The notes under the pieces are model-generated. The model made no database searches. It worked only from the letters and a program-made list of their open reading frames with translations, and was not told the origin of the DNA. A program made the position numbers and the translations under genes. A stretch of 45,758 nucleotides of DNA from an uncultured bacterium (GTDB lineage Bacteria > Vulcanimicrobiota > CADAWZ01). The DNA lies in the NCBI GenBank assembly GCA_902791745.1, contig CADAWZ010000003.1:1-45758 (forward strand). Direction: 5' to 3'. Positions 1,679 to 2,229 of the stretch are shown here, piece after piece (position 1 is the first letter of the stretch; every line of letters begins with the position of its first letter).

Positions 1679-1714
1679 AAAAAAAAGTGGTCATGAAACA
1701 TTTTTCACAACCAC
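1679..1714 (-). terminator. Intrinsic terminator after the six-cysteine peptide gene
   Basis: Read on the minus strand, GTGGT (1714-1710) pairs with ACCAC (1691-1687), and TGAAA pairs with TTTCA inside, separated by a small TG/TG internal loop. Eight T residues follow directly (1686-1679). It sits 18 bp past the peptide stop codon and should end the transcript of the small Cys-rich genes. Confidence 0.75.
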
Positions 1715-1731
1715 TCAATCAATCCATAAAA

Positions 1732-1902
1732 TTATCTTCTTTTTTCACATGGTACATTGCCTACTGTGCATGATGTCTTGCATGCAGACTGACAAGATGT
1801 TGCACAATTAGCACATTCTTTTGAAAACTCTTCTTTTTTCCATGGTGCTGAAATCTGAGTAGCAAACTCAAATTTTTCTTCTTTTTTTGTTGTGTTTTGC
1901 AT
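1732..1902 (-). CDS. SCIFF-type six-cysteine ranthipeptide precursor
   Basis: This 56-codon gene starts at ATG 1902, nine bases after AGGAG, and ends at TAA 1732. The first 29 residues are a Lys/Glu-rich leader. The last 27 hold all six cysteines (30, 33, 37, 41, 45, 52), spaced CX2CX3CX3CX3CX6C, including the string SCQSACKTSCTVGN. That string and spacing match what I recall of SCIFF peptides (six cysteines in forty-five residues), the substrates of SPASM radical-SAM enzymes that form Cys thioether bridges, as with CteA/CteB of Clostridium thermocellum. No radical-SAM gene lies in the window, so the maturase must be elsewhere. Just upstream is another Cys-rich small gene; just downstream is a terminator. 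The family call is by recognition, without a search. Confidence 0.8.
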   Translation of the reverse strand: MQNTTKKEEKFEFATQISAPWKKEEFSKECANCATSCQSACKTSCTVGNVPCEKRR

Positions 1903-1932
1903 TGAAAAATTCTCCTAAATATATACAAAAAT

Positions 1933-2229
1933 TTAGCCGAGTGAAGAACCTTCTTTATCTGGGAAATCACAGTCTTCACATTCATTAAAACTTGCAAGAG
2001 GTCTTGCCTTATAAGTATGAGTACAGTTTATAAAAATCTTAGCTCCATCTTCAAGATTAAAACCAAAATCGACATGAGGACAAAATCTATCTGGAACATT
2101 ATCCAAACAAAACTCATATAAATCATCATACATACTTGGATGAGCATGTTGGAAATAGTGTTTTTCACATTGGAAAATTCCAAGTAAAGATTGTCTATAA
2201 ACACAAGGTCTATAATTATTAGCAGGCAT
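1933..2229 (-). CDS. Conserved-looking Cys-rich small protein, function unknown
   Basis: This 98-residue protein starts at ATG 2229, chosen because GGAGG lies eight bases upstream; an in-frame TTG at 2244 precedes the ribosome-binding site and is unlikely. It has seven cysteines (9, 21, 41, 50, 69, 84, 87), several histidines (24, 28, 30, 52, 71) and a CEDC motif near the C-terminus, which could bind a metal or an Fe-S cluster. There is no signal peptide or membrane segment. The gap to the six-cysteine peptide gene is only 30 bp, so the two are probably co-transcribed and end at the same terminator. I do not recognise the family. A partner role for the ranthipeptide is possible but unproven. 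Confidence 0.7.
   Translation of the reverse strand: MPANNYRPCVYRQSLLGIFQCEKHYFQHAHPSMYDDLYEFCLDNVPDRFCPHVDFGFNLEDGAKIFINCTHTYKARPLASFNECEDCDFPDKEGSSLG

Follow-up and report, generated by a model that had tools for sequence, protein, structure and literature searches.

A SCIFF-type precursor peptide in an outer-membrane-bearing, non-clostridial bacterium, probably modified by an ScfB-like enzyme encoded on another contig

SCIFF peptides are small, rich in cysteine and cross-linked by a radical-SAM enzyme; they are widespread in Clostridia, and their function is still unsettled. The window analysed here, a stretch of 45,758 nucleotides, contains what looks like a gene for such a peptide with no maturase beside it, which raises the questions of whether the gene is real, where its enzyme is encoded, and whether the host is a clostridium at all. 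The first-pass annotation had described a 56-residue ORF with a good ribosome-binding site, a dedicated terminator and six cysteines in its last 27 residues, and each of these features was recovered: the ORF lies at 1732..1902, on the minus strand (the strand had been left unstated), with AGGAG, as read from the sequence, at 1912..1916 of the same strand, 9 nt 5′ of the ATG. An intrinsic terminator (1685..1716, minus strand), made of a 14-pair stem and a T-run, folds at -18 kcal/mol with a z score of -5.0, which was equalled by 0 of 200 shuffles. The product, MQNTTKKEEKFEFATQISAPWKKEEFSKECANCATSCQSACKTSCTVGNVPCEKRR, carries its cysteines at positions 30, 33, 37, 41, 45 and 52, in the spacing CX2CX3CX3CX3CX6C, and thus shows what defines a SCIFF, six cysteines that fall within ~45 residues and keep the spacing of the core. 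Its proposed assignment to SCIFF also held when the suggested comparison with TIGR03973 was run: the peptide scored 50.8 bits (E 1e-13) against a cutoff of 50, a margin of less than 1 bit, and PF13165 gave 50.2 bits against a cutoff of 27 (E 2e-13). That narrow TIGR03973 margin is due to the deviating leader: the model aligns from position 14 on only. Moreover, orthologues in other genera share 77% amino-acid identity while, at identical residues, 45-58% of the codons differ, and the gene is therefore under purifying selection. On this sequence evidence, we take the ORF to be a real gene and not a chance one.

In an alignment of 13 peptides (the window peptide, nine relatives from its phylum and three clostridial peptides), C30, C33, S36, C37, Q38, A40, C41, K42, T43, S44, T46 and C52 are invariant, and the fourth cysteine and both candidate threonines are unchanged in 10 of the 10 peptides of the phylum. 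In known SCIFFs the fourth cysteine (Cys32) is cross-linked with Thr37; a further study places the bond at Thr34 instead (PMC8326336). Going by the C-KTSC-T spacing, the counterparts of Cys32, Thr37 and Thr34 would be C41, T46 and T43, respectively, so that the thioether donor is likely Cys41 and the predicted acceptor Thr43 or Thr46. The fifth cysteine, C45, is missing from the G008 and G009 peptides, in agreement with a donor other than C45. The leader of the window peptide, in the same alignment, differs from the clostridial leaders.

As for the enzyme, the description of the gene as lacking a nearby maturase was accurate for the window, where none was found near it. However, the TIGR03974 profile search of the whole genome that the first-pass annotation had proposed returned a radical-SAM/SPASM enzyme on a contig other than the window's (G000:C11:17802-18878, G000 being the window's genome). 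The precursor is thus no orphan, a peptide without an enzyme can be rejected, and the refutation set in advance, absence of a maturase genome-wide, fails. TIGR03974 is the best NCBIfam model for this protein (363.8 bits, with not_ScfB at 324, PapB at 231 and QhpD at 194), and since that score is below the cutoff of 425 we call the enzyme ScfB-like; the G012 maturase, of the same clade, exceeds the cutoff with 437.8 bits. The top PDB match of the G000 enzyme is 5wgg (E 1e-84, residues 68-425), which we take to be CteB. In the nine maturases of the phylum the CX3CX2C radical-SAM motif (C88, C92, C95) and eight C-terminal cysteines (C314, C322, C340, C378, C381, C387, C391, C410) are invariant. 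It is the N-terminal region that has changed: in the window's taxonomic order ~80 residues precede the radical-SAM core, where most Clostridia have ~96-125; scored with a clostridial profile of the N-terminal region, the maturases of this order reach 2-8 bits and that of G007 reaches 74; and in a profile-profile comparison for the split order only the hairpin part can be aligned, the recognition domain being barely recognisable. The leader is altered in the same genomes whose maturase N-terminal region diverged, and the shortened recognition element, taken with the changed leader, argues that leader and enzyme have probably co-diverged in this order.

The first-pass annotation had also stated that SCIFF genes normally adjoin their enzyme in Clostridia, and rightly: at 76 of 80 control loci, drawn from named genomes that are almost all clostridial, the peptide gene directly precedes the maturase gene and shares its strand, and in earlier work 234 radical-SAM genes had a SCIFF gene no more than 500 bp away (PMC5300114). 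In the window's phylum, precursor and maturase likewise adjoin in G007, G008 and G009, and they are separated in G000, G001, G002, G003, G004 and G012, which belong to three families. In G000 itself the two genes are on different contigs, and gene adjacency is lacking. In G004 each gene is internal to a contig of its own, of 366 and 369 kb, and the split is therefore not caused by assembly fragmentation. In the sister genome G001, the contigs that enclose the SCIFF gene and the maturase measure 69 and 54 kb, respectively, and in both G001 and G004 the distance between the pair is tens of kilobases or more. The contig ends of G012 permit a distance of ~10 kb, so the two genes of that genome can be called non-adjacent but not necessarily distant. 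The window's clade has kept the split across several families.

The host could have been clostridial, or the system could have spread to or persisted in another lineage with its precursor detached; those were the alternatives of the first-pass annotation. Omp85 was found in the window genome and in nine of the nine relatives tested, and not in the Bacillus, Lactococcus and Corynebacterium controls. Some Bacillota are diderm, and Omp85 by itself cannot exclude Bacillota. Within the phylum, the maturase is present in 9 of 149 genomes (E<=1e-60), and clear peptide matches (E below 1e-11, 98 genomes searched) occur in those nine and in G005, a 62% complete genome with no maturase among the matches; peptide and maturase thus co-occur almost perfectly. 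Weak TIGR03973 matches in G040, G043 and G066 (E 0.003-0.006), none with a maturase at the threshold used, were set aside as noise, as was the sole match for a second SCIFF copy elsewhere in the window's genome, which contains internal stops. In the maturase tree, the enzymes of G000-G004 and G012 form one clade (support 96/87), apart from G008 with G009 and from G007 plus Clostridia, and its inner branching matches the genome taxonomy; G012 and G008 sit on long branches, which makes the placement of G012 less certain. Because Omp85 is present, SCIFF is rare in the phylum and the maturase falls outside the sampled Bacillota, the host is not clostridial but an outer-membrane-bearing lineage. 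Of the two alternatives, then, the first falls and the second is borne out by Omp85, the distribution and the tree, the SCIFF-type system having apparently passed down by vertical descent in a clade outside Clostridia. No relevant paper emerged when the literature was searched for ranthipeptides in combination with several candidate phyla.

In the window, a gene for a 98-aa Cys/His-rich protein (1936..2229, minus strand; the protein begins YRPCVYRQSLLGIFQCEKHYFQHAHPS) precedes the SCIFF gene by 30 nt and is probably co-transcribed with it. Throughout the window's family this gene precedes the SCIFF gene, with hpt beyond and then rsmH where the contig reaches, and the same neighbourhood is seen in G001, G002 and G003. 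The 98-aa protein is 94-97% identical between genomes whose hpt is 44-78% identical and has no match in Pfam, NCBIfam or PADLOC; judged from its sequence, it is a strongly conserved family without known relatives in the databases searched. As a SCIFF-specific partner it was rejected, since 28 of the 149 genomes of the phylum have it and the majority of those 28 lack SCIFF; it occurs regardless of SCIFF and is thus a separate matter. Unlike in the window's family, the SCIFF gene of G004 and G005 (L114, L115) has a PurA-like gene and one for an M54 (archaemetzincin-like) peptidase in its vicinity. Homologous proteins of 1170-1231 aa, with YcdB-like (DUF4901) and CAAX-protease (Rce1-like) domains, are encoded within a few kilobases of the SCIFF gene in G008 (L117 1144-4839) and G012 (L119 9654-13166), genomes of two families, and in G007 an M48 CAAX protease lies beside the maturase. 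It is possible that these CAAX-protease-type proteins serve as leader peptidases.

The maturase has a neighbourhood of its own. It is followed, on the same strand, by a GspF/PilC gene (PF00482) in G000, G001, G002, G004 and G012, that is, in every split genome whose contig continues past the maturase (5/5 readable). By contrast, gspF was matched in 0 of the 80 clostridial loci, of which 44 have secD and 42 secF (domains checked in L045). Three genes with prepilin-like N-termini then follow in G000, G001 and G004, called by motif with Pfam support weak or absent. The maturase-linked gspF is a distinct orthologue, the main pilB-/pilT-/pilC-like cluster of G000 being on another contig, and the nearest gspF matches in the SCIFF-less G015, G020 and G028 have no maturase adjoining. 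Although the gspF proteins of G012 and G000 are 48% identical and the remaining neighbours differ, the adjacency has been kept, which is suggestive, not proof; it could also be one ancient insertion retained by descent. Two side observations belong here: a truncated tandem 5′ copy of gspF (62 codons, 93% DNA identity over 141 bp) stands between the G000 maturase and the full gspF (L120 9961-10149, on G000:C11), and G004, G018 and G028 have 28 to 33 GspF/PilC homologues per genome, an unusually large expansion of type IV pilus/type II secretion-like modules. A speculative reading, which we think doubtful but worth stating, is that SCIFF here has joined a GspF/pseudopilin (type II secretion/type IV pilus-like) module, the maturase being co-expressed with it, leader recognition reduced, and the peptide made or exported in step. 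If true, this would parallel the clostridial secDF neighbourhood and point to an export-linked SCIFF function. For now, the secretion link is only a lead.

The same neighbourhood feeds a rival explanation, in which the pair has been re-purposed: the maturase may act on another substrate, serving the GspF/pseudopilin operon or a pilin-like protein, and the peptide would be a relic or independent. The position of the maturase directly before gspF in five genomes and in none of the 80 clostridial loci speaks for this, as does the shortened recognition element. However, the peptide has kept its core in full and occurs together with the enzyme, GspF orthologues without a maturase exist in SCIFF-less relatives, and a single ancient insertion may simply have been retained, so that we regard re-purposing as improbable. 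An alternative Cys-rich precursor at the maturase locus was sought and rejected, the locus offering only short ORFs, mostly antisense to or overlapping genes, and none SCIFF-like. Still less probable is that the peptide is translated yet left unmodified, as a small metal- or redox-binding protein; its many cysteines would suit that role, but the conserved non-Cys core (SCQ.ACKTS.TV) and the strict co-occurrence of peptide and maturase speak against it.

Least credible to us is that the SCIFF gene is not native, whether as a recent clostridial acquisition or as contamination. That SCIFF is best known from Clostridia (PMC8326336) would favour this origin, as would the position of the gene 1.7 kb from a contig end in a fragmented assembly of 213 contigs. 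Against it stand the orthologues in the same neighbourhood in three other genomes, the leader unlike those of Clostridia, the deep codon divergence, and a maturase clade that lies outside all sampled Clostridia and mirrors taxonomy. We therefore consider it very probable that the gene encodes the ScfA precursor of a SCIFF ranthipeptide in a non-clostridial, outer-membrane lineage, modified in trans by the ScfB-like enzyme from another contig. By analogy with characterised SCIFFs, the leader would first be bound by the N-terminal recognition element of the maturase, which would then abstract a hydrogen from a threonine side chain, and that threonine carbon would become bonded to the sulfur of the fourth cysteine, linking Cys41 to Thr46 or to Thr43. 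For the mature product, judging from Clostridia, a conserved signalling or housekeeping role seems likelier than an antimicrobial one.

The occurrence of SCIFF in another, outer-membrane-bearing phylum means that Clostridia are not its only hosts. Moreover, a precursor and an enzyme that stay genetically apart over deep divergence imply that SCIFF does not depend on gene linkage, and so linkage-based genome mining will miss split pairs. The closest known system is the clostridial ScfA-ScfB pair (TIGR03973/TIGR03974; CteA-CteB, Tte1186a-Tte1186), with which the window peptide shares the core SCQSACKTSCTVGN and the six cysteines, and the window's genome an ScfB-like enzyme with radical-SAM and SPASM cysteines; the donor cysteine and acceptor threonine positions are kept. 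Unlike the clostridial pair, the window's host has Omp85 and its precursor and maturase are unlinked, the leader is not MKHIKTL-like, and the N-terminal recognition region is shortened in the window's order. The co-diverged leader and maturase N-terminal domain give a comparative handle on leader recognition. A second handle, on SCIFF function, comes from the neighbourhoods, the maturase being beside gspF/pilC here where clostridial loci often have secDF instead. The related radical-SAM/SPASM enzymes of PapB-freyrasin and QhpD also form non-alpha thioethers, but the G000 enzyme scores 231 and 194 bits with those models versus 364 with TIGR03974, and the window peptide is without the repeated Cys-X3-Asp motif. 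A close relative of ScfB is the orphan maturase not_ScfB (NF040492), with which the G000 enzyme scores 324 against a cutoff of 855; unlike in that case, a SCIFF precursor exists in the window's genome.
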